Assembly: GCA_945835885.1 (NCBI GenBank)
Contig: CAMAJR010000009.1
Coordinates: 1-33,712 of the forward strand
Reading direction: 5' to 3'
DNA length: 33,712 bases
Source: an uncultured Alphaproteobacteria bacterium
GTDB lineage: Bacteria > Pseudomonadota > Alphaproteobacteria > RF32 > CAG-239
Both the position numbers and the translations under genes were made by a program. The notes beneath the pieces were generated by a model that worked only from the letters and a program-made list of their open reading frames with translations, made no database searches and was not told where the DNA came from. Position 1 is the stretch's first letter. Every line of letters begins with the position of its first letter. Shown piece after piece: positions 1 to 20,151 of the stretch.

Positions 1-3000
1 TGCTCTTGTCGTCTGTTGTCAAGCGCGTCAAATCACCCTCAACACCTTTGGCGCGCTGTTCTTCTATGTCAACATCGGCTGCTCTGTTTAACGTTTCTTG
101 ATACAAACCTTCATCCAAAGCCGTCAAGTTCTCGGCTACCGTCGTTCTGCGTTCCGCTACGCCGACACTTGGAACAGTCAGACCCGAAATGTAGTGCGTT
201 GAGCCGCCGGAAACCGTGCCGTTATTGTTCTTTGAACTTTGGTCTACTTCGCCGATAGAACGGTCTAACGCCATCAAGTTATCGGCTACCGTGTTACCTG
301 CCCCAAACGCTGAGGCCGTTCTTTGAACCAAGTTACCGTTATTGTCGCCAAGTGAACCCAACTTCGTGGTAATTTCACCGCTGATTGCACCGTCTACCGC
401 GTTAATGGCTGCAACTAAACTTCTGGCACCTGTGGCATTGCCTGTCAAGCTATTAAGGTTACCCTCAACACCTGTCGCACGAGTTGCTTCTGCAGTTAAA
501 GCAGCATCTACCGCGTTAATGGCTGCAACTAAGTTTCCAGCATTTTCAGCAACACCCTCTAAGTCTTGAAGGTCACCTTCAACGACTTTCGCACGGGCGA
601 TTTCAACGTCGATTGCCCCTTGCAAGCCGCTTTCTATACCTTTCGCACGAGTTACTTCTGCATCAATCGCATCATCCAATGCTTTCAAGTTTGTGCCGAC
701 CGTGTTGGCAATCTTAGCATATTTGCCATCTCCCGTCATTGTAATATTCGTTTGAATATCATCAATATCTTTTTCGGCATCAATCAACGCGCTATCCAAT
801 GCTTTCAGGTTGCTGGAAACGGTTGACGGAGTTGCCGCTGTCGGGGCATACGCCTTCAAGTGTGTGCCTTGCGGTAAATCAGACAATACACCGATGGTAT
901 CATTAACCGTCTTGGCATTCGTGCCTAAGAAGTTAATCGCTTCTTTAATATTTCTGTCATTCTGACCGCCGTCAGCCAAGATGTTGGTGTTAACATTACC
1001 GGTTGCCGTGAAGTCTGCGACTTCGGCATTTGCCTTAATATCACGATCAACGCTGGCTTTTGTTGCAACCTTTGTGCTGTTGGCGTTACCGCTTACGGTA
1101 TCAACTGTTGTCAAAGCGTTGTTATCGCTGAGCTTCAAGCTCGGTGTGGTAATGCCGTCACCTTTGATAAAGGTTGATTTTTTAGCTTCGCCGGTCTGAC
1201 CATTGTCAACAACAACACCATTGGCATTGCTAAATGTCTTGGCTCCCGTAATGGTTTCTGCACCGGCAATATGAACAACACTGCCGTCAACATTGCCAAT
1301 TCCTGTATTCAAGGTGTTCAAAGCAGCTTCAAGCGTTGTAACCGTATCTTTGTTCATCAAACCGTCTGTGCCGACTTTATAATAACCGTCTTTTGCCTTG
1401 CTATATACGGTCTTAGCCAAAGCACGCGTCGTTGCAAATGTGTTGCTTGCACCGCCCGGCGCATCAGCCGTGCCGAGGTCAATTGTGTCAGACGAAGTGC
1501 CGGTCATTGTAATAACTTCTCCACCCAACTTAATGCCGTTTGCAAAAGTCTTTATACCGGTAATTGTGTCGTTTGTGCTGTTGGTTACAACATCATTAAC
1601 ATATACGTCTTTTCCGTTAACATTGATAGCACCTTTGTTTGTTCCTGTGGCAATCAAAATATCAACCGCACCGCTCTCATCTTCTGTCAAAGCAACGTGG
1701 TTAACTTTAACGGCTTTAACCGCATCGGTAGCGGCCGAATTTAATTCGTTGATAGCACCGACCAAACTGCCTTTTTCGGTTGTGTTCAAAGCACTCATTG
1801 TGCCGATGTTGTTTTGGATGGTCTTTGTTCCTGTTCCTAAGTAGTTAACTGCCTTAGAAATGCTGTTGACAGCCGTTGTTTCCGCTCCAGCCAAAACGTT
1901 GGTGTCGTATGTGCCGGTCGCAGCAAAGTCTGCATCTTTGGCTTGTGCTTTAATATCACGAGCAACACTGGCTTTGGTGGCAACGATTGCACTGTTGGTG
2001 TTACCGCTTACGGTATCAACACCGGTTACTTCCGAACCGCTCAAGGTCAAACTCGGGGTTGTAATGGTGCCATTGTTTTGAATTGTCAAAGCAGAAGCAT
2101 TGATGCCTGCATTGGCTGTCAGCAAACCGGTCATTGTATCGCCAGCTTTATGAACCGCACTGCTGTCGGCATTCTTCAAAGCAACATTCAAATCATTCAA
2201 AGCCGTGCCGAGTGTAATCGGGGCAACGCTCGGAGCAATTTGACCGTCATTACCCGTGAACTTGAATGATGCATCTTTTGCGTTGTTATAAACCGTATCA
2301 GCCAAGGCCTTGGTCGTTACAACCGTGTTGACGTCGCCGTTGACTTCATCACCGTTCAACAAAGCAATCTTTTGTGTTGCAACATTATTCAATACCGGTG
2401 CACTGTCAGAAGTGCCGAGTTTAATACCGCTATTGAATCTGTCAACACCGGTAATGGTTTGACCACCGTCGGTTACCATCGCATTCTTAATCGCAACTTC
2501 TGCACCGCCGATGGTAATCTTGCCGCTGTTGTCACTTGTGACGGCAACTGCTATATTGTTACCGCTCAACGCAGTCGCATCATTAAATTTAATGCTTTGA
2601 ACCGCACTGCCTGCCGTGCCTTTGATTTCGGCAATTGCACCGGTCAAAGTTGTCGCGGTTGTGCCCATATTTGTATCACCAATCTTCGCGTTGATTGTTG
2701 CAATACCTGTCTTATTGGTAGAGGCCTGAACACCCAATTCGTTAAGAGCACCTTTAATCGTGGTTGCGTTTTCGTTGTTCTTAAGAATATTGGTGTCAGC
2801 CGTTCCTGTTGCCGTAAAGTCGGCATTTTGAGCTTGTGTTTTAATATTAGCAGCAACGCTGGCTTTGGTCGCAACGACTGTCTTGTCTGCGGCTGTTGTG
2901 CCGTCAGAATCAACACTTGTCAAGTCAGAACCGTTCAAAGTCAGAGTCGGGGTAACAACGCCGGCACTAGCCGTAATTGCGCTTGAAAATGTCTTAGCCC

Positions 3001-6000
3001 CCGTAATGGTTTCTGTACCGGCAATATGAACAACACTGTCATCAACACCCTTCAACTCGGCATTCAAACTATTCAACGCCGTACCGATTGTCGTATCGCC
3101 TGCCGCAACTTTGCCGCCGGCTGCGAGTGTAACATCGCCGTCTTTGGCTTGTGCTTTAATATCACGATCAACACTGGCTTTGGTGGCAACGATTTGGCTG
3201 TTGGCTTTTGTCGTATCGTTTGTTCCAACATAGTCAACCTTTGTTAAGAGGTATGACGGAGATTCGCCTGTGCCTGTGCCGAGTTTTAAACCGTTTGTAA
3301 ACGATTTGATGCCGCTGATAACTTGCGGTGCGGCAGATGTTCCGCCATCGGTCGTAACTACATTATGAACTGCGATTTCTGTCGGTGTTGCCGTGCTGTT
3401 TCCGTCCCAAACTTTAATTGTGCCGCTGGTATCGCCTTCGGCAATCTTAAGACTTACGGCGCCATCCGATTCGACTAAAGCCGTATCATTCAGTTTAACT
3501 GCACGAACTGCATCACCGGACTTGTTATAAGCGTCTTTCAAAACGTCAACGACTGTTTTGCCGGTTGTGCCTAAAGCAACATTCAAATCAGCTTTTGTTG
3601 CTGCACCGAGCATCGTGTTAACTGATTGTGCGTTAGTTCCTAACGTATTGATTGCACCGGCAATTGTGCCGTTGTAGCCATACAACAGGTTGTCGCTTGA
3701 TGTGCCCGTCGGTGTGAACATAGCCGTTTGTGCATTGTTATAAATTGTGCCGGCCATTGATTTTGTGGTTACAAGCGTATTGCTGTCGCCGTTGATATCA
3801 CCGCCGGATTTCTTCAATGCCAAGGACTCGTCTGTGGCTTTGGTTATGGTCAAATCACTCTCGCCCGTGCCGAATTTAATACCGGCGCCGGCAACTAATT
3901 TGCCGCTCATTGTATCGCCTGCTTTATGAACCGCACTGTCATCAACACTCTTTAACGCAGTATTCAAAGCGTTTAAGCCGCCGGCAACCGTCACCGGATT
4001 TGCCGTAACTTTACCGCCCGCGTCAAATGTAAAGTCAGCATCTTTTGCTTTAGCTTTAACATCACGCTCTACACTGGCTTTTGTGGCAACGATTTTGCTC
4101 TTTGCCACTTCGGAAGCTACTGTATCCGCATTTTCCAGAACGGCAGATGAACCGAGATGAATGCCGTTTGCAAAAGTCTTTATACCGGTAATTGTGTCGT
4201 CTGTGCTGTTGGTTACCACATCATTAACCGATACTGACACACCGTTAACCTTGAATGCACCTTTGACATCGCCTTCATCAAATTGTAGCGTCGGCGTGTT
4301 CTTGGTAATTGCCGTGCCTGCCGTACCGCCTGATTTAACCGCAATTGTTTGAACTGCGCTGTCTGCCAAAGCACCTTGTGCAGCCGTTGCAAACTCGGCA
4401 ACGTTATGTGTTACGATATCTCCGTAAGTATTAAGTTTATCGTTAATTTGGTCTGCTTGTGTGCCTAAAGTATTAACCGCTTTGGCAATTGTGCTTGCAT
4501 CAACAGACGCATATTTCAAAACATTGTCATCAGCCGTTCCGGTTGCCGTAAAGGTAGCATTTTGTGCTTGGTCTTTAATATTCTTTGCAACGCTGGCTTT
4601 GGTCGCAACAATCTGGTTATCCGTGTTTGAACTGACGCCGTCGGTATCCGCGCTGGTCAAAGTCCGAACATCATCACCCGTGCCGAGTTTCAAACCGGCT
4701 TTAAATGTCTTAACACCGGTAATATCTTCCGCACCGGCTTTGTGAACGACCAATCCGTCGTTGGTGCTGATGCTGTTTGCCAATGTTTTTAATTCTTTAC
4801 CGATTGTGCCGTTATCATAATTGGTCGAGCTTGCATAGTCGGCGCTTGCCGCATTTGCTTTAACATCTCTTTCAACGCTGGCTTGTGTTGCAACCATCTT
4901 GTTCTTTGCCTGAATATTCAAGTCTGTGCTGTCAATTGTCACAGCGCTTGTCAGTTCTTTACCGGCTAAGGTCAAACTCGGTGTTGAAACACCGGCGCTG
5001 GCCTTCAGGGTTGTTGTATTAACACCGCCGTTTGCGGCAATCGCATTTGCAAATGTGTTGTAGCCGCTGAAAATTTGCGGAGTTGTTTCCGTGCCACCGT
5101 CTGTCGTCACAACATTCTTAATTTTGATTTCGGTCGGAGTCGCAGATGCTGCGTTACCATCCCAAATTTTGAATGCACCGCTGGTGTCGCCTTCGGCAAT
5201 TCTGAGGTCTGTCGCGCCGTTGGTTTCGGTCAAAGCAACATTATTCACTTTTACCGTCTTAACCGAATCAATCGCTTTAGCGTTGACTTCGGCAATCGCA
5301 CCGGTCAAAGTCGTTGCGGTTGTGCCCATATTTCCTGTGCCGATGGTATCTTTAATGCCGTCGGTTTGCGTGCCTAAATAGTTAATCGCCTTTCCGATGG
5401 TGTTCACGCTGGCCGCGTCTGCATCACGCAAAACATTGGTGCCGACTTCACCGCTCGGTGTGAACGAAGCGGTCTGTGCATTGCTATAAACCGTATCAGC
5501 CAAGGCCTTGGTCGTCACAACCGTGTTAGCGTCACCATTAACTTCGTCACCGTTCAACAAGGCAATTTTTTGAGTTGCCGCACCGATCAAAGTCGGCGTT
5601 CCTGCGTCTGTGCCGAGTTTCAAACCGGCTGTAAATGTCTTAACACCGGTAATATCTTCCGCACCGGCTTTGTGAACGGCCAATCCGTCGTTGGTGCTGA
5701 TGTTTTCTGCCAATGTTTTTAATTCTTTACCGATTGTGCCGTCAGCATAATTGGTTGAACTTGCATAATTGGCACTTGCCGCATTTGCTTTAATATCACG
5801 GTCAACACTGGCTTTAGTGGCAACGACCTTGCTGTTGGTTATTGTTGTATCATTTGTGCCGTCGTAATCAACACTTGTCAATTCGTGGTTATCGGCAAAC
5901 TTCAAGCTGTCGGCCGTCAAACCGCTCGTAACAGCCAAACCGCCGTTTGCCGTCAATTTCTTTGTAAATGTTTTGGCACCGGTAATCGAATCGTCTGTGC

Positions 6001-9000
6001 TGTTGGTCACAACATCATTCAATGTAATTGTTTGATTACCGAGTGTTAATTTGCCTGAAGCATTACTTGAGAACGCAATATCAACATTGCCGTCTGTTTC
6101 TGTCAGCTTTGTTGTGCTACCGCCGACGGTAATGCTTTGAACAGCGCCTTCTGCCGTATCTTTGGTGGCTTGGAGAACTTGAACCAAAGACTTGTTTTCT
6201 GTGCCTAATGCCGTATTTAAATCTGCTTTTGTGGTGGCACCAATCATATCATCAATTACTTTGGTTTGGTTGCCTAAGCTGTTAATCGCACCGGCAATCG
6301 TGCCGCTACTCAAATAATTGTTGGCACCGGTCGCCGTAAAGTCGGCATTTTGCGCTTGTGTCTTAATATTAGAAGCAACACTGGCCTTGGTTGCCACAAC
6401 TTTTTGGTCGGCCAAAACCGTTCCTTCTTGGTCAATACTGGTCACTTCATTACCGGACAATGTCAATGTCGGAGTTGTAACGTTTGTTGCCGTCAAACCG
6501 GTTGTGGTGATACCGCCGTTTGCAGTCATGGCACCGCTGAACGTTTTAGCGCCGACAATCGTTTCATCGCCGGTTTTGTGAACAACATTCGAATCGTTGG
6601 TGCTGATGGCGCTTGCCAATGTTTGCAATTCTTTACCGATGGTATCGGTGCCGTATGTGCCGGTGGACAAGTAGCTACCGTTTGCCGAATTATCATAAAT
6701 GGTCTTGGCTACGGTCTTGGTGGTTGCCAAAGCATTTGACGAACCGCCGTTGCCGCTGCTCAAATCGATTGCCGTTGTGCCGGCATCGATAGATTCAGCT
6801 GTCGGATATGCCGTTGTTGAGCCGCCGATCTTAAAGCCGTTCGAGAACGATTTTACGCCGGTAATTGTTTCGGCCTTCGAGCCGGTTGTGTGAACAACAT
6901 CATTGCTCAAAGAGCTGTTTATGGCGTCTAATTCGGATTTAATTGTTGTTGTTGTCGAGCCCTTTGTGTATGCGGCATTTTGTGCATTATTATATAATGT
7001 CGATACCAAAGATTTTGTGGTTGCCAATGTGGTTGCCGAACCGCCGTTGCCGTTTGTGCCCAAAGATGTCTGGCTTGCACCGGTATCAATAAGGTTTACC
7101 GAATTGCCGTTAAGTGTAAAGTTACCGTTGTTACCTACGGTCAAACCGCCATTGAACGTATTAAGTTTGCTATACGTTTTAGCACCGCTGATTGCTTGAT
7201 CACCGTCGGTTGTTACAACATTGTGAACGGCAACATCAGTATTATTTACCTTAATTGTGCCGGAAGCAGTGCCTTCTTCAATTAAAATATTTACGGCATT
7301 ATCTTGCGATGCTAATGTGCTGCCGTTGACTTTAACCGTTGTTAATGCCGCATTTTTCACGTTATTAATTGCAGTAACAACATCCGGCGCGCTATCCGGT
7401 AAAGCGGCGGTATCACCGATTGCCGTATCCAAATCATTTATGGCACTCTCATTATCCAAGGCTTTTTTGCCTACTGCATCAAGAGCTGATTTAATTGTTG
7501 TTGAACCGCCATACAAACCGGTAGCATTGCTTGCCGGCGCATATTTTGAATTTTGTGCATATTCATCAACTGTTTTCGTCAAAGCACTAACGGTTGCCAA
7601 TGTATTTGCTTTATCAGCGCTTGTGTTCTTTGCAATAGCAGCATCTTGTGAAATATCGGTAACCAACAATCCGGTTGCACCGATTTTTAAACTGTTTGTC
7701 GTAATGCCGTTTGTAGCGGTTACGGCGCCGGAGAAAGTGTTGGCGCCGCTAAATGTATTGGCACCGGTTTGTGTGGCAACACCGTTCACAGCCACATCTT
7801 GTCCACCCACGGCGATTGTGCCGGCCGTTGCGCCGGTTGCAACTTCTATCGTAACGTTTTTACTTGTATCCGGTGTTAATGATGTTGTTGTCGAACCGAC
7901 TTTGAGTTTAACACCTTGAATAGCACTTCCTGCCGCTGTTTCCGCTGCTTTTAAGGCGCTACCGATGGTGCCGTTGGCATAAGTTGCGGAACTTGCGTAA
8001 TCACCGCTTGCCGCACTTGATTTAATCGCCGTGCCGACAGTTTTGGTAGAAGCCAAAGCTGATTCCGAACCGCCGCCGGCCGTGATTGCCGTGGTGCCGT
8101 TATCAGAACTCGTAATCGTTGTGCCTGTGCTACCGAATTTAACACCGCTGAATGTGTTGGTTCCGCTAAAGGTGTTGTTAGCGCTTAATTTTGAAACACC
8201 ATAGACCGTAACCGGCAAATCATTTACTTTAAATGTGCCTTCGTCTGTTCCCGTTGAAAAACTCAAAGCTGTTCCATTTGCGTTAGACAATGTCTTTGTG
8301 CTACTGCCGGCATTAACCGTAATCGATTGCAAAGCAGAGTTAGCTGTGCCTCTGACTTCATTGATTGCGCCTTTCAAGGTTTGATCGGTTGTTTGCAATA
8401 CTGCTGTGCCGATTGTGCCGTTGATTGTAGCAATACCCTGTTGATTGGTGTATGCTTGTTTGCCCAAAACATTGATAGCTGCACCAATTGTGCTGCTACC
8501 GGTCAGCACGCTGTCTGTTGCACTGCCGGTTGATGTAAATGTCGCCGATTGAGCTTTATCTGCAACAGTTGTTGCCAACGACTTTGTGGTCGCCAATGTT
8601 GACGTATCACCTTCCGTGGCCCCATATACCGTTGCACCTGAAGTGCCGGTTACCGCTTGAGAACCGCCTAATGTCAAACTGTTTGCAGTGACACCGTTTG
8701 TAAAGGCGGTTGCACGGCTGATGGTTTGCGTGCCGGTTCCCGTAGTTGTCACAACATCTTTAACCGCAACATTTGTGCCGTTGACAGAAATTGCACCTGC
8801 CTGATTGGAACTGCTGGCGATTGTTAAAGTAACCATATTACCGGCTTCTTTGGTTAAAGCAGCCGGTGTTGCACCGTTAACACCCAATTTTAAACCGGTC
8901 AAAGCATTTGTGGTCAGAGTATTTAAGTTTGTGTTTAATGTATTTAACGCGCCGCCGATGGTTGTTGATGTGTCACCTAATGTATATACCGCATCTTTGG

Positions 9001-9595
9001 CGTTATTATAAACTGTTTTAGCAACCGCGCTGGTTGTCGCAATTGCGTTGGCAGAACCGGCTGTTCCACCGGCCACTACTATAGCATCTGCAACAGAACT
9101 GGTTAACGCCGGACCGCTTTCACCGAGTGCGATACCGCCCTTAAATCTGTCCAATGCCTTAATGGTTTGATTACCTTCCGTTGTCAACACGTCCTTCAAT
9201 ATAATATCTTGACCGCCTATGGTTATCACCCCCGCAGAAGAACTTGTAACCGCCAAATTGGTAATACCATTTGAAGAACTGACACTATTACCATTGATTT
9301 GGAAACCGGTCAAAGCATTAATATTAACCGAGCCATTCGTTCGCACCAAAGAGCTACCATTAAGTTTGACATCTTTTATTACATCTCCTAAATCGACTGT
9401 TGTTCCCTCTGGCGCAACAACCGCCCCATTCATCTTAATGTTTTCTACAGCTGCCTCAGCATCCGATGCCGTTATAGCGGCAACAACCGGCGCACCGAGC
9501 GCGAACAACCCCACATTAATCAGCCAGCATTTCTTCAACACGCTTCGATATTGACGTGTTAATAGACCAATTGCGGTTTTAGTATATTTCATCAT
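1..9595 (-). CDS. Giant secreted repetitive surface protein / adhesin-like, 3' end (C-terminus) truncated by window edge
   Basis: Minus-strand frame starting ATG at 9595 (SD-like GAAGGGAA upstream): MMKYTKTAIGLLTRQYRSVLKKCWLINVGLFALGAPVVAAITASDAEAAVENIKMNG..., an extended signal-peptide-like N-terminus. Manual translation at several points, including positions 1-130, gives in-frame modular sequence (..TVVATKASVAANIKTQAQNADFTATGTADTNIL..; ..DTITGIKTFANGIKLG..; ..ALDEGLYQETLNRAADVDIEEQRAKGVEGDL..). The same motifs recur throughout. I spot-checked rather than translated every codon. Confidence 0.88.
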   Translation of the reverse strand, partial: MMKYTKTAIGLLTRQYRSVLKKCWLINVGLFALGAPVVAAITASDAEAAVENIKMNGAVVAPEGTTVDLGDVIKDVKLNGSSLVRTNGSVNINALTGFQINGNSVSSSNGITNLAVTSSSAGVITIGGQDIILKDVLTTEGNQTIKALDRFKGGIALGESGPALTSSVADAIVVAGGTAGSANAIATTSAVAKTVYNNAKDAVYTLGDTSTTIGGALNTLNTNLNTLTTNALTGLKLGVNGATPAALTKEAGNMVTLTIASSSNQAGAISVNGTNVAVKDVVTTTGTGTQTISRATAFTNGVTANSLTLGGSQAVTGTSGATVYGATEGDTSTLATTKSLATTVADKAQSATFTSTGSATDSVLTGSSTIGAAINVLGKQAYTNQQGIATINGTIGTAVLQTTDQTLKGAINEVRGTANSALQSITVNAGSSTKTLSNANGTALSFSTGTDEGTFKVNDLPVTVYGVSKLSANNTFSGTNTFSGVKFGSTGTTITSSDNGTTAITAGGGSESALASTKTVGTAIKSSAASGDYASSATYANGTIGSALKAAETAAGSAIQGVKLKVGSTTTSLTPDTSKNVTIEVATGATAGTIAVGGQDVAVNGVATQTGANTFSGANTFSGAVTATNGITTNSLKIGATGLLVTDISQDAAIAKNTSADKANTLATVSALTKTVDEYAQNSKYAPASNATGLYGGSTTIKSALDAVGKKALDNESAINDLDTAIGDTAALPDSAPDVVTAINNVKNAALTTVKVNGSTLASQDNAVNILIEEGTASGTIKVNNTDVAVHNVVTTDGDQAISGAKTYSKLNTFNGGLTVGNNGNFTLNGNSVNLIDTGASQTSLGTNGNGGSATTLATTKSLVSTLYNNAQNAAYTKGSTTTTIKSELDAINSSLSNDVVHTTGSKAETITGVKSFSNGFKIGGSTTAYPTAESIDAGTTAIDLSSGNGGSSNALATTKTVAKTIYDNSANGSYLSTGTYGTDTIGKELQTLASAISTNDSNVVHKTGDETIVGAKTFSGAMTANGGITTTGLTATNVTTPTLTLSGNEVTSIDQEGTVLADQKVVATKASVASNIKTQAQNADFTATGANNYLSSGTIAGAINSLGNQTKVIDDMIGATTKADLNTALGTENKSLVQVLQATKDTAEGAVQSITVGGSTTKLTETDGNVDIAFSSNASGKLTLGNQTITLNDVVTNSTDDSITGAKTFTKKLTANGGLAVTSGLTADSLKFADNHELTSVDYDGTNDTTITNSKVVATKASVDRDIKANAASANYASSTNYADGTIGKELKTLAENISTNDGLAVHKAGAEDITGVKTFTAGLKLGTDAGTPTLIGAATQKIALLNGDEVNGDANTVVTTKALADTVYSNAQTASFTPSGEVGTNVLRDADAASVNTIGKAINYLGTQTDGIKDTIGTGNMGTTATTLTGAIAEVNAKAIDSVKTVKVNNVALTETNGATDLRIAEGDTSGAFKIWDGNAASATPTEIKIKNVVTTDGGTETTPQIFSGYNTFANAIAANGGVNTTTLKASAGVSTPSLTLAGKELTSAVTIDSTDLNIQAKNKMVATQASVERDVKANAASADYASSTNYDNGTIGKELKTLANSISTNDGLVVHKAGAEDITGVKTFKAGLKLGTGDDVRTLTSADTDGVSSNTDNQIVATKASVAKNIKDQAQNATFTATGTADDNVLKYASVDASTIAKAVNTLGTQADQINDKLNTYGDIVTHNVAEFATAAQGALADSAVQTIAVKSGGTAGTAITKNTPTLQFDEGDVKGAFKVNGVSVSVNDVVTNSTDDTITGIKTFANGIHLGSSAVLENADTVASEVAKSKIVATKASVERDVKAKAKDADFTFDAGGKVTANPVTVAGGLNALNTALKSVDDSAVHKAGDTMSGKLVAGAGIKFGTGESDLTITKATDESLALKKSGGDINGDSNTLVTTKSMAGTIYNNAQTAMFTPTGTSSDNLLYGYNGTIAGAINTLGTNAQSVNTMLGAATKADLNVALGTTGKTVVDVLKDAYNKSGDAVRAVKLNDTALVESDGAVSLKIAEGDTSGTIKVWDGNSTATPTEIAVHNVVTTDGGTSAAPQVISGIKSFTNGLKLGTGTGESPSYLLTKVDYVGTNDTTKANSQIVATKASVDRDIKAQAKDGDVTLAAGGKVAAGDTTIGTALNSLNAELKGVDDSVVHIAGTETITGAKTFSSAITASAGVVTPTLTLNGSDLTSVDSDGTTAADKTVVATKASVAANIKTQAQNADFTATGTADTNILKNNENATTIKGALNELGVQASTNKTGIATINAKIGDTNMGTTATTLTGAIAEIKGTAGSAVQSIKFNDATALSGNNIAVAVTSDNSGKITIGGAEVAIKNAMVTDGGQTITGVDRFNSGIKLGTSDSAPVLNNVATQKIALLNGDEVNGDVNTVVTTKALADTVYNNAKDASFKFTGNDGQIAPSVAPITLGTALNDLNVALKNADSSAVHKAGDTMTGLLTANAGINASALTIQNNGTITTPSLTLSGSEVTGVDTVSGNTNSAIVATKASVARDIKAQAKDADFAATGTYDTNVLAGAETTAVNSISKAVNYLGTGTKTIQNNIGTMSALNTTEKGSLVGAINELNSAATDAVKAVKVNHVALTEDESGAVDILIATGTNKGAINVNGKDVYVNDVVTNSTNDTITGIKTFANGIKLGGEVITMTGTSSDTIDLGTADAPGGASNTFATTRALAKTVYSKAKDGYYKVGTDGLMNKDTVTTLEAALNTLNTGIGNVDGSVVHIAGAETITGAKTFSNANGVVVDNGQTGEAKKSTFIKGDGITTPSLKLSDNNALTTVDTVSGNANSTKVATKASVDRDIKANAEVADFTATGNVNTNILADGGQNDRNIKEAINFLGTNAKTVNDTIGVLSDLPQGTHLKAYAPTAATPSTVSSNLKALDSALIDAEKDIDDIQTNITMTGDGKYAKIANTVGTNLKALDDAIDAEVTRAKGIESGLQGAIDVEIARAKVVEGDLQDLEGVAENAGNLVAAINAVDAALTAEATRATGVEGNLNSLTGNATGARSLVAAINAVDGAISGEITTKLGSLGDNNGNLVQRTASAFGAGNTVADNLMALDRSIGEVDQSSKNNNGTVSGGSTHYISGLTVPSVGVAERRTTVAENLTALDEGLYQETLNRAADVDIEEQRAKGVEGDLTRLTTDDKS

Positions 9596-10189: not shown

Positions 10190-10221
10190 AAATTAAAAAG
10201 GGCGGATTATGCCACCGCCCT
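10190..10221 (-). terminator. Rho-independent terminator of the giant prepilin-like gene
   Basis: Minus strand GGGCGG-TGGCATAAT-CCGCCC followed by TTTTT, just downstream of the stop at 10268. Confidence 0.7.
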
Positions 10222-10267: not shown

Positions 10268-13200
10268 CTACCACAGTTCGTCGTATTTTAAAGCAGGGTC
10301 ATTCAACACCTTACGTTCGTCCGCGTGCGGTGCCGAATAATCTGTGTTCCAGTCATCTATCGTATATTGGATATTGCCGGCATTTTCAGTAGATCCATCG
10401 TCATCCCAATTAACCGTACCTGTTACTGAGTCATTATCTGTTTCTGAGACAACTTTGTTATCGATGAAGCAATAAGTGGTTGAATAACTGGTCAACGTAT
10501 TCTTCAACACCGGGAACAGATTCCAATAACCGTCGATTTCCGCATCGCCGTCATCATTATAGTCATCTTTTTTGGTGACGCCTAACACGTTCGCAACATT
10601 ACCGTATAACTCTACCGGATATATAAAGCCCGTCAGAACAGCCCAACCGTTAACATAGCCTGTATTCTCGTGTGTTGCTAATTCCTTAAATGCCGTTTTC
10701 AGCCATGTGCTCTTTTGAAACGAAATCGGACGTTGGTTCGGGTCGTTGGTAACCAAGAAATATGCGCCTTCATCCGTCTCACTCACACTCTGATTTTTTG
10801 CCAGTTTCGGTTCCGGTTTGCCGGAGGAGTTATATTTAGTGACATATTTATCGGCGACAACATCCGCCCTCAAAGCCAATCCCTTATTATCTTTGATGGC
10901 ATTTCTGTCTGCACCGGTGGACCGTGTGTTATAACCAAAGTGGTCAATATATAAGGTTTGGTCGCGCAAATCAACGTGCGAATTTTCGTGAAATACCGCT
11001 TCATCCGACTTTAACGTATCACGGTCAACACCGACACGCGCGACACCACCGATGAGGAACAATCTGTTTTCTTCATCACCGTCATCTTCCGGTCCTTTGC
11101 TATTTTGATAAAATTGCACAAGATCCGGTTCCCATTTACCGCCGTCATTTTCGGCACTTCCTCTGGTTGTTTGAAGTTGTGCCGGAACCGAACCTTTTTC
11201 TATCGAGCCCTGTTCCAAATCTCTGATTCTGCCGAATACCGGTTGATTTTCCAAAAATTCGGCCTTGCTGGTATAGTTAGTTTCCACAACACCGTCATCA
11301 CTTTGCACGTAAGCGCCGGGATTAGTAGCATCGACTTTCAGACCGAGCATCGCCGCCTGCGACACATCCAGACCAGCGCGATCGGCACCAGCCGGTTCCA
11401 AAGTTCCGACCGTTGCCATTTCAAAGCTGCCCGGAACAACCGTAATCGCTCTACCGTATCCCGGAGGACACGACGGTGCCGGAATAGACCCTAAATACGG
11501 CGATGCGTAAGGTGAAGTACCTTCACTTTCCGGTGTGCGATCTCCTTCATCACCGCTTAATTCTTTATAATCGGTTCCTTCACTATAGCTGTTGGTTGAG
11601 TAGTAAATTCTCTTGGTAATAAAGTCCGGCAAAATATCACTCAAACGCGCGCCAAAACGAGACGTCAGCTTAATATCCTTCATCACGGAAGTGTATGCCG
11701 GATTAACCATATATGTGTCGTATTTGTTGCTTACGCCACTTTGATAGTCGCTATCATTCAACGTATTGTTATACATAATACGCTCGCCTTTGATATTAAC
11801 ATTGTTTGCCACAAAACGTGACGCACGAACAGTGCCGGAAGAAGTATCGGCAGAAGCATTACCCTTTGGTTCTTCCCCACCAGTATAATCACTACGATTC
11901 GGCGCAATATCAATTAAGCCCTTTCGAATATATACCGTTCCTTGCGCCATGGTTCTTTTCCCGCCAGTTTTATTGTCCAATTCAAATGAATCAAATGAAT
12001 TATCGCTCCCACTCGTGTTTTCCCAACCTTTTGGGGCACCAACATACGCCTGACTACTGCCGTTTTCTAAGTCGATATACACAACACGTTTGGAATTATT
12101 GCCCGCCGTATCACTGTCTGACACAATGTTCACACCGGCATTGTATTGGTCGTCTATACCTTTATCCTCGCCTGAAGATTTTACCCCCATTGCCAAGAAC
12201 TTAACTGCTTTGTTTTCGTTGTTGCGAGATACTGCATCACTCGTAAACACTGTATCACCGTGGCCGGCTATTTTGAACTTACCGTTTGTATCGGTGTTAC
12301 TTGTTTTGTATGTTGTCGGGTCGTTATAATTACCACCGACCAAACCAGATTCTTCTGTATCATTACCGCGAATGGTGAAAACAGGATTTGCAGCGCTATC
12401 CGTTACTTGTAAGGTGGTGCCAATCATATCCACGTAACCGCCCTCTTCATACTTCACGCGGTACGGGCTATTTCCTCCCCCTTCTCCTGTTTCATCATCA
12501 GCCGATGTCGGACTGCCGATTGTGATTTCGTTCTTTTCTAAACGCTCACGCACGCCTTTTGTGCCGGTTGTCAGTTCAATCGAATGGCCTGTCGCCGCCT
12601 CACCATCAGTCCCCTGTGCAATTATCTTAACACCTGAATCGTTCATAATAAACTGCGTTTCATGCTTTGTCGGGTTTTCATTGGTATTCAAATCTTGGGC
12701 TGTCGAACCGAAGCGCATCGCAATCACATCATCATTGATTTCAACCTGCTTTAATGCCTTGGCGGGTGTCGTATTCCCCTCGCCGTCATCTGTTGCTTCC
12801 GCACCGTCGCGACTATGGATATGGACACCGTCTTCATCCACTTCCATCCATTTCAATCTGTCGTTGATGTTCGGTGAACCAACGGCAAGTTCCGCCACAC
12901 GGATTTTTTGCGTATCCAACTGCCCGGCTGCCAAAACACCGTTCACTGCCATATTGGAATCGACCACCACCGGGAACTGCGGCACCGCCGGTTGCCCAGT
13001 GTCATAACTTATTTTCGGAGCGTTTGATGCATCCTCAGTGGTATAGCCGTTATCGGTATCCGCACCCGAACCGTCGATTGTTTTATCGCCCGCTTTGGCA
13101 AGCAAGAGTTTGGTGCCGGTCGCTCCTCTGTCACCGACCCTAACCTCCTCCAAATCACTGTCCGACGCAATAATCAGCGGTGCATCTCCGCTGTCGCCTT

Positions 13201-14503
13201 TGCTGACAGGCATAATCTCAACTCGATTTCTACCCTCCGGCGCTTCCATTCCTTCCTGAACTTCTTCTTCGCTTTCGAGTTTTTCGGTCACAGCGGTAAT
13301 CAAATATTTGGTTGCTGTTCCCGTTGTTTCATCCTCATCAATTCCGCCGAGTTGAATTTTCGGACCGTGATAGGTCAGCTCATTTTCATCTGTGAACAAA
13401 CGCTTTCCGGCTGCTTCAAGCGAACCGGCAATATATGCGTTAATGCCATATTTACCTCTAGTGTCATCGGTTGCGTCGGCAATATACAAACCATAGCTTT
13501 CCAACCCCCTTTTCACGTCAGCATCGCCTTCTTCGCCTTCTGCGCCTTCACCGTTGCTTGTTTGATATTTTTCGTTAACATAAAGACTGTCACGGTCGCT
13601 GGCTTTTTCCCAACCTTTATCATTATCGGCATCAGAGCCGTCAGCACCGACAATCAACTGATTGATGTTACGAATACTGAAGTAACCGTCGGTTGTTTTA
13701 TCATCATAATCGTGACCTTTGTTTGCCAGTTCACCCATATAAATATCTGTGCGCATTGTGTTACGCCATTTTTCGATTTCACCGTTTTCTGCCGTGCGTT
13801 GCAGATATTTGGTCATGTCGCCACCCATACCTTCCGCACCGTTCACAACGTCTATTGATGATGTCACGATTGAATAATTGCCCGGTGTGCTGCCGGCAAT
13901 CGAACTCAATTCATCGCTGGTCAGATTCCAAGTGCCGCCGACGCCGCGTGCTTCACCTTCACGCACATAGCCGCCGTTTGAACCGATAAGCGAAGCAATT
14001 CGCACCGTACGCTCTTGTCCGATGGTTTCTTCTTCATCGCCGCCTCTTGCCGGAAACACCATAAATGCCGATAAATTATTGCCGGACCGCGCGACGGCAA
14101 ATGACGGTTGACCATAATTATATAAGTTGTCTTTGGCGCTGTAGCCGTAAGGAAGATACTTTTCAAGTTCATCCATTGCTTTAACCGTATCACTTCCGGC
14201 TTCATCGCTTCCCGGAACCGTTAATTCCAAATCATCCAATGAAACAATCGTCGGGTTATCACCCGCCGGTTCCGGAATTTTTTCCATCAACTCGGAATAA
14301 TTGGCCGCCAGCAAAGACTCGACACCATTCATATAAGTGCGAATAGCCGAGGCGGTATTGATGTCCTCAACTTCCATTGTGCGCTCCGCTGACTTTTTAT
14401 ACATTGTCGGCGTCACAACGGCTATCAAGCCGAGCATAGCCAAGGCCTCAATCATCAAGCCGCCTTGTTCTATTACGGATTTTTTGTTGTTAAACTTTTT
14501 CAT
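10268..14503 (-). CDS. Giant (1411 aa) prepilin-type protein with PilV/shufflon-N-like N-terminal domain; candidate pilus tip adhesin
   Basis: N-terminus MKKFNNKKSVIEQG|GLMIEALAMLGLIAVVTP.. has a prepilin peptidase motif (G at -1, E at +5, hydrophobic helix). It is followed by ..LEKYLPYGYSAKDNLYNYGQPSFAVARSGNNLSAFMVFPARGG..RTVRIASLIGSNGGYV.., which resembles PilV-type N-terminal domains. Long acidic Gly/Asn/Asp-rich central region; C-terminal ..PAPSCPPGYGRAITVVPGSF... Good SD (AGGAGA). Confidence 0.75.
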   Translation of the reverse strand: MKKFNNKKSVIEQGGLMIEALAMLGLIAVVTPTMYKKSAERTMEVEDINTASAIRTYMNGVESLLAANYSELMEKIPEPAGDNPTIVSLDDLELTVPGSDEAGSDTVKAMDELEKYLPYGYSAKDNLYNYGQPSFAVARSGNNLSAFMVFPARGGDEEETIGQERTVRIASLIGSNGGYVREGEARGVGGTWNLTSDELSSIAGSTPGNYSIVTSSIDVVNGAEGMGGDMTKYLQRTAENGEIEKWRNTMRTDIYMGELANKGHDYDDKTTDGYFSIRNINQLIVGADGSDADNDKGWEKASDRDSLYVNEKYQTSNGEGAEGEEGDADVKRGLESYGLYIADATDDTRGKYGINAYIAGSLEAAGKRLFTDENELTYHGPKIQLGGIDEDETTGTATKYLITAVTEKLESEEEVQEGMEAPEGRNRVEIMPVSKGDSGDAPLIIASDSDLEEVRVGDRGATGTKLLLAKAGDKTIDGSGADTDNGYTTEDASNAPKISYDTGQPAVPQFPVVVDSNMAVNGVLAAGQLDTQKIRVAELAVGSPNINDRLKWMEVDEDGVHIHSRDGAEATDDGEGNTTPAKALKQVEINDDVIAMRFGSTAQDLNTNENPTKHETQFIMNDSGVKIIAQGTDGEAATGHSIELTTGTKGVRERLEKNEITIGSPTSADDETGEGGGNSPYRVKYEEGGYVDMIGTTLQVTDSAANPVFTIRGNDTEESGLVGGNYNDPTTYKTSNTDTNGKFKIAGHGDTVFTSDAVSRNNENKAVKFLAMGVKSSGEDKGIDDQYNAGVNIVSDSDTAGNNSKRVVYIDLENGSSQAYVGAPKGWENTSGSDNSFDSFELDNKTGGKRTMAQGTVYIRKGLIDIAPNRSDYTGGEEPKGNASADTSSGTVRASRFVANNVNIKGERIMYNNTLNDSDYQSGVSNKYDTYMVNPAYTSVMKDIKLTSRFGARLSDILPDFITKRIYYSTNSYSEGTDYKELSGDEGDRTPESEGTSPYASPYLGSIPAPSCPPGYGRAITVVPGSFEMATVGTLEPAGADRAGLDVSQAAMLGLKVDATNPGAYVQSDDGVVETNYTSKAEFLENQPVFGRIRDLEQGSIEKGSVPAQLQTTRGSAENDGGKWEPDLVQFYQNSKGPEDDGDEENRLFLIGGVARVGVDRDTLKSDEAVFHENSHVDLRDQTLYIDHFGYNTRSTGADRNAIKDNKGLALRADVVADKYVTKYNSSGKPEPKLAKNQSVSETDEGAYFLVTNDPNQRPISFQKSTWLKTAFKELATHENTGYVNGWAVLTGFIYPVELYGNVANVLGVTKKDDYNDDGDAEIDGYWNLFPVLKNTLTSYSTTYCFIDNKVVSETDNDSVTGTVNWDDDGSTENAGNIQYTIDDWNTDYSAPHADERKVLNDPALKYDELW

Positions 14504-14550
14504 CGGCGTTCTCCTATTATATCATTCACTTACAATAATTTGTATATTGA

Positions 14551-15864
14551 TTAATCTTGCGGTTGATTAATCGGTTTATCTTTATGTTTATTTTGCCAGT
14601 CATTGTCTTTGGTCTTGCCTTCCGCAAACCCGACCATAAGATTATAACAATGGTATGCCGTATCAGTCGCCGGAATACGCTCATAAGCAAACATACACGG
14701 CGTTGAACTGCAATTTGCCTTAAATTCGTCTGTCTGCCAAAAAACAGAATTGTCAGGCAATTTTTCATATTCAATCACATAATCACTTTGAGTTTGGCGC
14801 TGATTTTCAAAAATCGGATTACCATATTCATCAAGCACCGCATTTCCGTCCTCATCTCGTTTTTGAACTCTTTCATAAGTTTTTATACCGACGGTCACAC
14901 CCGTTCGATCGCCTTTCGCACGTCTGGAATCCGCTTTTTGACGCACATTGCCGTGGCGCGCATTCATACCGTATAATTTACATTTCGGCTCACTTGAATT
15001 TCCGTCGCAAATTGTCCATCCGAAAACCGTATCGCTGTTAGAATCTTTTGCCAACATATTTACCAAAATCGGCAACGGAGAACGGTCTTTTTTAGAAAGC
15101 CATCTATCCGGAATTTGTGCAAAAGTCACTAAATAGCGCGTGCGTGAAGAAAGTCTTTTTTCGGTAGTGTGCGAACCATCATAGTCAGCATCTCGTTTCA
15201 TATCGCAACGCATAAAATTCTGCGCCGTTGCACGTTCGGCAACTTCATCCAAGCAATAAACAAAATGATTCACGCCCGTCGGAAAAACGGTGCGACCGCG
15301 TTGTGTGTCATATCCGTGCGGAACGTGTTTCATAAAGTGGTTATAGTTTTCAACCACATTATCTTCAAGATTATTACTGGTGTTCACAGTCCCCGGCGTT
15401 GTTGTCGATTCCGTTCCCGATTCGATTTCTGAGTCCGTCACAGGTTCAGAGGTCGGCGTGCCGTTACCGGCCGAACCCGCCGTAACCGGTCCCCAAAAAG
15501 TTTTCATTGTATCCGTGCCGACGGTAACGGTGCACGATTTTGCACATTTGTCTACGTTGTTCGCATAAAACATCGGATTAAAGCAGCTGACATTAACCGG
15601 ACCGCTTGCACTGGCACGCGTCACTTCATTGCCACACATACCGCAATTTTGAGATTCTTCTGCGGCATCCCAACATCCGGAATTGCGTTGATACATAATT
15701 TCGCATTCCATTGTTTTAAGCATAGCTTTATGCTCAATTTTAAAGCGATTGGACACGGTCGCCGCACGCACTTCGTTAAGTGCATGGTCTTTATCCGCAC
15801 GCGGCGATACATTATAAAAACTCAACGCTACCATAATCGTAGCCAATAATATCCATATATACAT
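14551..15864 (-). CDS. N-terminally membrane-anchored, cysteine-rich protein of unknown function, operonic with the prepilin-like gene
   Basis: 437-aa ORF; N-terminal hydrophobic segment MYIWILLATIMVALSFYNV; many Cys (CEIMYQRNSGCW, CGMCGN, CAKSC). Ends 47 nt upstream of the 14503 start on the same strand. Confidence 0.7.
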   Translation of the reverse strand: MYIWILLATIMVALSFYNVSPRADKDHALNEVRAATVSNRFKIEHKAMLKTMECEIMYQRNSGCWDAAEESQNCGMCGNEVTRASASGPVNVSCFNPMFYANNVDKCAKSCTVTVGTDTMKTFWGPVTAGSAGNGTPTSEPVTDSEIESGTESTTTPGTVNTSNNLEDNVVENYNHFMKHVPHGYDTQRGRTVFPTGVNHFVYCLDEVAERATAQNFMRCDMKRDADYDGSHTTEKRLSSRTRYLVTFAQIPDRWLSKKDRSPLPILVNMLAKDSNSDTVFGWTICDGNSSEPKCKLYGMNARHGNVRQKADSRRAKGDRTGVTVGIKTYERVQKRDEDGNAVLDEYGNPIFENQRQTQSDYVIEYEKLPDNSVFWQTDEFKANCSSTPCMFAYERIPATDTAYHCYNLMVGFAEGKTKDNDWQNKHKDKPINQPQD

Positions 15865-15974
15865 CGATTTATCCTTAATCGAGGTTCACATTGTTTGTCT
15901 TAGTGTAACATAAATCAATTTAAAATACTACCCGAGTTTTGTGAACTTTTTGTTAAAAAAAACTCATAAAACGC

Positions 15975-19215: not shown

Positions 19216-20151
19216 ATGGCTTATCCTGAATATTATGACATACTCGGCGTTAAAACCGATGCTTCGCCGGACGAAATTAAAAAATCTTATATTCATCTGG
19301 TAAAAAAATATCATCCTGACACACATCAAGGTGATATAGAGTCTGAAAACAAGCTCAAACGCATCAATGAGGCCTATGATGTTCTGAAAGACCTTGCCAA
19401 ACGTGCCGAATATGACTACTTTGGTGTTAACGGACAAGAAGAAATACCGCCCGAAGAAGAACAGACGGCCGGATATCCGCAACCCTATACACCGCCCCAA
19501 ACATCGCACACATATTCCGCCTCCGTCAAGCCGTCAAAAATCCGTGTCGGATTGCGTTTTGTTATAGGAAAATTGTTTTGGCTCTCATTTTTGGCATTGT
19601 ATATTATTTTTTTGCACACGCATCGTGATACGAAAGACCCGAACAATGTGTTTAAGATGTTTTTAAACAGTTCACAAGCGATTGTCCAACAAACCAAACA
19701 ATTTGCGCAATCAGGAGGAGCATCTTTATTTAACTCACCGACTTTGAAACAGTTTATTATCAATACCCTGTTTAACGCCGTGCGCCAAAACAATATCCGT
19801 GCTGTTAGTTTTTGGCTCTCCGTTTTGCCGTCGCGTTCGGTATTTTTTTATGTTAATGCAACAGACAAACAAAATTACGGACGCACTCTTTTAATGGAAG
19901 CGCAAAGTCCTGAAATTATCGCCGTATTGTTAGATGCCGGTGCTATTGCCGACCGCGTCGACACTACGGGAGAAACAGCGTTGACATTAGCAATCAGACG
20001 CCACGATGCGACCGGCGTTGAATTGATGTTACAAGCCGACCCGAGCATTGCGGATTATGTATTACCTAACGGGATGACTCCGATGGATTTGGCACTCAAA
20101 AACAATGATACCATCATTATGACGCTTTTACAACAACGCCTCCGCCAATAA
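19216..20151 (+). CDS. J-domain (DnaJ-like) protein with transmembrane segment and C-terminal ankyrin repeats
   Basis: MAYPEYYDILGVKTDASPDEIKKSYIHLVKKYHPDTHQG.. contains HPD; hydrophobic LFWLSFLALYIIFL; C-terminal GRTLLMEAQSPEIIAVLLDAGAIADRVDTTGETALTLAIRRHDATGVELMLQADPSIADYVLPNGMTPMDLALKNND ankyrin-type repeats. Confidence 0.85.
   Translation: MAYPEYYDILGVKTDASPDEIKKSYIHLVKKYHPDTHQGDIESENKLKRINEAYDVLKDLAKRAEYDYFGVNGQEEIPPEEEQTAGYPQPYTPPQTSHTYSASVKPSKIRVGLRFVIGKLFWLSFLALYIIFLHTHRDTKDPNNVFKMFLNSSQAIVQQTKQFAQSGGASLFNSPTLKQFIINTLFNAVRQNNIRAVSFWLSVLPSRSVFFYVNATDKQNYGRTLLMEAQSPEIIAVLLDAGAIADRVDTTGETALTLAIRRHDATGVELMLQADPSIADYVLPNGMTPMDLALKNNDTIIMTLLQQRLRQ

Follow-up and report, generated by a model that had tools for sequence, protein, structure and literature searches.

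We propose that a gene at positions 10268-14503 (minus strand) of a 33,712-nucleotide stretch of DNA from an uncultured alphaproteobacterium (GTDB lineage RF32; CAG-239) encodes a giant minor prepilin of the PilV type. The stretch, hereafter the window, is contig C9 (CAMAJR010000009.1) of a 1.5 Mb genome in 91 contigs (G000). The product of 1411 amino acids (aa) is probably the tip-initiating minor pilin of a chromosomal pilus of the R64/TCP (toxin-coregulated pilus) class, type IVb (T4b), and a long adhesin of fixed specificity, with a trimer the probable form. The prepilin leader, the PilV domain, the assembly machinery and a conserved operon are supported at the level of sequence, and function as a tip adhesin is a well-grounded hypothesis. 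We infer the tip position, the trimer and the receptor by analogy, the terms 'tip' and 'adhesin' being carried over from PilV, TcpB and CofB. A first-pass annotation of the window had suggested a PilV-like tip adhesin and had named beforehand the N-terminus and the assembly machinery as the points on which this would fall; since a PilV-like N-terminus was found and the machinery is in the genome, the suggestion survives. To it we add that the gene is order-wide, that its architecture is conserved and that it is tied to a partner gene.

The gene and its PilV-type N-terminal domain

The reading frame is open on the minus strand from 14503 down to 10268, as first annotated, and its product (152 kDa, isoelectric point 4.5) begins MKKFNNKKSVIEQGGLMIEALAMLGLIAVV. 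The stretches quoted from it in the first-pass annotation (YLPYGYS, YNYGQPSFAV, LSAFMVFPARGG, RIASLIGSNGGYV and CPPGYGRAITVVPGSF) are all present in the translation. This is not a chance frame, because orthologues of similar architecture occur in 35 of 35 sampled genomes of the order (G000-G034), nearly always at a single locus, and a scan of named genomes gave 180 loci. Outside the order, matches were found in G036 and, more weakly, in G055. The nearest named carriers are alphaproteobacterial genomes, Azospirillum sp. CAG:239 among them, recovered from the rumen of sheep, roe deer, goat and yak and from guts of other kinds.

Distinct family members with an N-terminus reach 1464 aa and most have 920-1460 aa. 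When the class was searched with the C-terminal half, other families yielded more relatives, whose open frames span 640-1133 aa. The long forms are order-wide, so great length belongs to the lineage and not to one genome; shorter versions exist farther out. The size, remarked on at first as unusual, is so against the 420-495 aa of plasmid PilVs (seven proteins, with that of R64 (AP005147) outside the plasmid collection), but the protein is normal within its lineage and no lone oddity. In G055, which belongs to another family of the class, 44 first-look candidates and 10 scored matches to the protein's prepilin N-terminus represent a large expansion of related prepilins.

The protein opens with a type III (prepilin) leader of 14 residues (14462-14503, minus strand), with cleavage expected after G14 and a glutamate at +5 (E19). 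Both G14 and E19 are invariant across 82 aligned homologues, which bears out the G|GLMIE motif reported earlier, and a prepilin peptidase is present in the genome. Residues 15-260 (13724-14461, minus strand) are assigned to a PilV/Shufflon_N-type pilin domain, with an alpha-1 helix of about 60 residues and an alpha/beta head. Comparison by hhalign of the seven plasmid PilVs with a profile of 31 orthologues gave 98.8% (E 1.2e-16), rising to 99.6% (E 1.6e-24, window residues 12-258) with 82 orthologues; a control in which one profile was reversed gave E 0.048. The Shufflon_N (PF04917) cut-off was passed by the orthologues of G036 (5.7e-18), G033 (3.4e-12), G016 and G008. The G036 orthologue matched plasmid pilV genes in tblastn with a best E of 5e-12 and about 28-30% identity. 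The PilV-like N-terminus claimed in the first-pass annotation is thus upheld by the profile comparison and by orthologues over the cut-off. AlphaFold2 predicts a helix at residues 7-67, and an alpha/beta head is modelled with confidence as far as about residue 220, the predicted local distance difference test score (pLDDT) being mostly above 90 for residues 40-220. Sequence searches of PADLOC, PHROGs and the PDB with the window protein gave nothing useful, and the pilin motif searched as a DNA pattern had no match.

Assembly machinery and the partner gene

The machinery on which the first-pass annotation depended was located on other contigs. A prepilin peptidase is encoded on contig C58, adjoining groEL/groES-like genes, and scores 54.9 bits with PF01478, over the Pfam cut-off. 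Contig C39 carries an R64/TCP-type pil operon that comprises TcpQ (60.8 bits), a PilN-family secretin (secretin 60, PilN family 256), PilO2 (71.6), an extension ATPase (T2SSE 215.9), a platform protein (T2SSF 85.2) and a PilS-like protein. Eight PilS-family matches are scattered over the genome (7/8 over the cut-off), most with a GRSMIEMLG-type prepilin motif. On these matches the pilus genes qualify as an R64/TCP-type (T4b) system. Two PilS-family proteins, L039:621-1271 (-) and L085:1327-2097 (+), are without the Gly/Glu5 prepilin motif, and one of them ends the pil operon.

As a marker of co-occurrence PilO2 proved too patchy (22 of 58 genomes), and the ATPase was used for this reason. An orthologue of the C39 ATPase (at least 59% identity, >700 bits) occurs in 33 of the 35 order members and also in G036 and G055. 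The 21 other sampled genomes have no such orthologue, their best ATPase score being 207 bits.

On contig C39, VirB2- and VirB4-like genes of type IV secretion run divergently from the pil operon. Contig C5 holds VirB10- and VirB11-like genes, and PilT/DotB-like ATPases are encoded on contigs C6 and C12. Pilus and adjacent VirB-type genes could together be one mating system, a conjugation or transfer apparatus in which the protein picks the recipient; plasmid PilVs do choose recipients (PMC9045228, PMC5297154), and the divergent arrangement on C39 would fit. We regard this as very unlikely, as the gene is conserved order-wide and no mobile element was seen around it (no search for relaxases was made). 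VirB systems that are conserved in host-associated Alphaproteobacteria need not be conjugative, which also counts against a transfer apparatus.

Directly upstream of the pilV-like gene on the same strand lies a partner gene of 437 aa (14551-15864, minus strand), with a leaderless N-terminal transmembrane (TM) helix (MYIWILLATIMVALSFYNVSPR) and a Cys-containing domain. Such a leaderless partner with one TM helix occupies this position in 82 of the 83 distinct loci with enough upstream sequence, at a median gap of 21 nt, the single exception being the outgroup G036. The other neighbours of the pilV-like gene change between genomes but the partner stays. At four loci from another family (L195, L196, L197 and L202) the partner is found 3' and not 5' of the pilV-like gene, so linkage has been kept through a change of order; in some plasmids pilM adjoins pilV and follows it. 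Together, the genes at 15864-14551 and 14503-10268 resemble a stand-alone operon. A Shine-Dalgarno-like AGGAG motif (14511-14515, minus strand) precedes the ATG of the pilV-like gene, and consensus matches mark a promoter-like site 5' of the partner gene (15917-15945, minus strand) and a terminator-like hairpin directly 3' of the pilV-like gene (10201-10216, minus strand).

The partner protein has no Pfam match. Against plasmid PilM it aligned over the first 56 N-terminal columns, covering the TM region and the next helix, with only 55% probability and E 1.2e-4, while seven controls (five block-shuffled and two reversed) gave E 0.03-0.5. This is suggestive of a PilM-like role, though the likeness could reflect a shared TM-helix pattern. 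Outright identification as PilM was set aside, the smaller comparison being negative (1.6%) and the deeper one suggestive only. The partner might also be related to the PilV domain, with which it aligned around the LPxGY region (29%, E 5.9e-4).

Beyond the pilin domain: stalk, hub and C-terminal domain

The family conservation profile shows conserved blocks at residues 14-60, 115-260 (the PilV domain), 505-560, 855-1040 and 1241-1411, with variable acidic stretches at 261-500 and 561-850 between them. Residues 261-850 (11954-13723, minus strand) are described here as a variable acidic stalk, on the basis of this profile and of weak tail-fibre-like fold matches; the one conserved block within it, 505-560, is encoded at 12824-12991. 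A conserved hub follows (residues 855-1040; 11384-11941, minus strand), in which NPAYTSVMKDIKLTSRFGARLSDILPDFI, followed by CPPGY, is the most invariant part of the family. Residues 1041-1240 (10784-11383, minus strand) form a variable insertion that is mostly absent from other family members (occupancy mostly <0.5). The conserved C-terminal beta domain, defined by conservation and the C-terminal model (residues 1241-1411; 10271-10783, minus strand), ends in LNDPxLKYxExW, and this motif or a close variant is the C-terminus of most family members. The sole two cysteines of the protein, C1012 and C1345, are invariant in alignments of 31 and 81 sequences; a disulfide between them, spanning the insertion, is therefore likely.

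Signs of a shufflon were searched for in the 3' part of the gene. No sfx-like invertible array was found there: inverted pairs were only of low identity or short, and matches to the sfx consensus used lay outside the 3' part. No recombinase gene lies between the pilV-like gene and its neighbours, the rest of the genome not having been searched for recombinases. The absence of a shufflon recombinase and of inverted repeats, remarked on in the first-pass annotation, is in this sense confirmed, and a shufflon PilV system, with invertible 3' segments bearing sfx repeats and an adjoining Rci recombinase, is unsupported. The C-terminal half was also considered as a module shared with plasmids and rejected, as a plasmid search gave no real match.

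Several results weigh against the assignment as a PilV-type tip pilin. The window protein has no Pfam or NCBIfam match and does not reach the gathering score of Shufflon_N (PF04917). The proposed correspondence of residues 1-250 with Shufflon_N stands through the profile comparison and the orthologues but not through a direct Pfam match, and by homology the protein is a divergent relative of the family rather than a Pfam-called member. Its residues past 260 have no sequence match to plasmid PilVs. The gene lies outside the pil operon. G027, scored 100% complete, has the pilV-like gene, and its pilus ATPase and platform protein were undetected; G019 has no ATPase match, but the sequence next to its platform-protein match is masked and may conceal the ATPase. 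The models of the stalk and tip are of low confidence (mean pLDDT 65 and 57): AlphaFold gives the pilin helix and a confident head, but the elongated stalk only with low confidence. The C-terminal model is confident in two beta-rich parts only, and its fold search placed TcpB and CofB chains within the top eleven PDB matches at a non-significant E of 2-6. For the N-terminal model, which includes the stalk, the top PDB matches were phage T4 gp34 fibres (E 0.025-0.057, weak). Tail-fibre and S74-type proteins dominated its viral matches, again weakly and with low template modelling scores, and the best of these (2.9e-5) was an uncharacterised phage protein. As neither model gave a significant PDB match, fold identity with tail fibres or with TcpB/CofB was set aside and both resemblances are treated as hints only. 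They hint that the stalk may be an extended trimeric beta fibre.

That the gene stands apart from the pil operon, and that its partner is a leaderless membrane protein, would suit a prepilin-processed stalk anchored in the membrane or envelope, a pseudopilin-anchored surface protein never built into a pilus. A protein of 152 kDa is, moreover, a large load for a pilus portal. Yet the protein retains Glu5 and the whole PilV head domain, and its gene tracks the pilus ATPase across genomes; we judge an anchored stalk to be quite improbable.

A further alternative is that of a cargo carrier. The closest solved T4b tip proteins work as cargo carriers, TcpB exporting TcpF (PMC9565799), and a tip trimer of the window protein could likewise hold a secreted effector and export it by pilus extension with no target binding of its own. 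The fold search with the C-terminal model ranked TcpB and CofB chains near the top, and large signal-bearing surface proteins are encoded downstream in several genomes. Against this, the matches are non-significant, the downstream neighbours differ between genomes, hence there is no fixed cargo gene, and the variable insertion in the C-terminal domain suits direct recognition equally. A pure cargo carrier is accordingly an unlikely account of the protein.

In the window itself the downstream gene (2-9595, minus strand) encodes more than 3200 aa, is cut by the contig end and opens with a lineage-specific N-terminal signal (MMKYTKTAIGLLTRQYRSVLKKCWLINVGLFALGAP). BppL_N is its only Pfam match over the cut-off. 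Of 23 genomes sampled in the genus, 22 have the same signal at the start of large open frames, which number several in each genome and reach about 5000 aa. On the plus strand, 19216-20151 encodes a 311-aa protein with an N-terminal DnaJ domain and C-terminal ankyrin repeats.

Proposed function and comparison with known systems

We propose that the PilV-type tip pilin would be assembled as follows. The 14-aa leader fits processing by prepilin peptidase, after which the alpha-1 helix and alpha/beta head (to about residue 260) would insert into the filament as in other PilV/TcpB pilins, the assembly machine being supplied by the same genome. Three copies would initiate each pilus and stay at its tip. 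The acidic stalk of about 600 residues, as an extended trimeric beta fibre, would hold the hub and C-terminal domain off the pilus shaft, and the C-terminal domain, closed by the C1012-C1345 disulfide and split by the variable insertion, would contact a receptor on a gut surface or on another cell. The partner may be a leaderless membrane-anchored helper of tip assembly, with a role akin to that of PilM. Species-to-species divergence in the stalk and the insertion, rather than a shufflon, would supply the variation.

In short, an oversized relative of the plasmid thin-pilus tip protein and a small membrane partner probably give these bacteria a fibre on the cell surface that ends in a very long, specialised tip used for attachment. 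A bolder version, which we hold only tentatively and consider possible rather than likely, concerns a large group of Alphaproteobacteria from gut and rumen. Their PilV tip pilin would have become a trimeric spike resembling a phage tail fibre, as long as about 1460 residues, and would act as a fixed-specificity attachment organ with an obligate leaderless pilin-like partner in the tip-initiation complex. If true, spike and partner would constitute a previously undescribed tip architecture for type IVb pili. The result predicts an order-wide surface organelle in common, uncultured animal-gut bacteria and puts forward a likely tip and a conserved partner for it; it could also serve to test what size of load the tip of a type IVb pilus can take through the secretin. 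A search of the open literature with narrow terms found no paper on pili of this lineage.

Plasmid PilV (IncI/R64-type and related, PF04917) shares with the window protein the Glu5 prepilin leader, the N-terminal domain of about 250 residues and the class of assembly machine. Here, however, the gene is chromosomal, two to three times longer and without a shufflon that could be found, its C-terminal region is unrelated, and it stands outside the pil operon, next to a partner of its own. This suggests that a component of plasmid conjugation also exists in a chromosomal form, passed on vertically, in which species-level divergence stands in place of shufflon switching. PilV of TP114 is a variable adhesin with a 345-aa constant part and a variable end of 69-113 aa (PMC9045228), whereas some 1150 residues replace the region past the PilV domain in the window protein. 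The partner has in common with PilM of plasmid thin-pilus systems a leaderless N-terminal TM helix and a further domain, but PilM has 142-148 aa and the partners 219-497 aa with conserved cysteines.

TcpB of the Vibrio cholerae TCP and CofB of the enterotoxigenic Escherichia coli pilus CFA/III (colonization factor antigen III) offer a comparison of how the protein may work. Both are large modular T4b minor pilins with a pilin domain and beta-rich domains and are trimeric at the pilus tip (PMC9565799, PMC10191384), and the same initiation and trimeric tip would be expected here. The window protein is about three times their size, and the likeness is not carried by sequence homology. The modular type IV pilins PilB and PilC of Streptococcus sanguinis similarly place a large adhesive module after the pilin module (PMC10191384), but they belong to another pilus class, and the window protein has no recognisable grafted domain.

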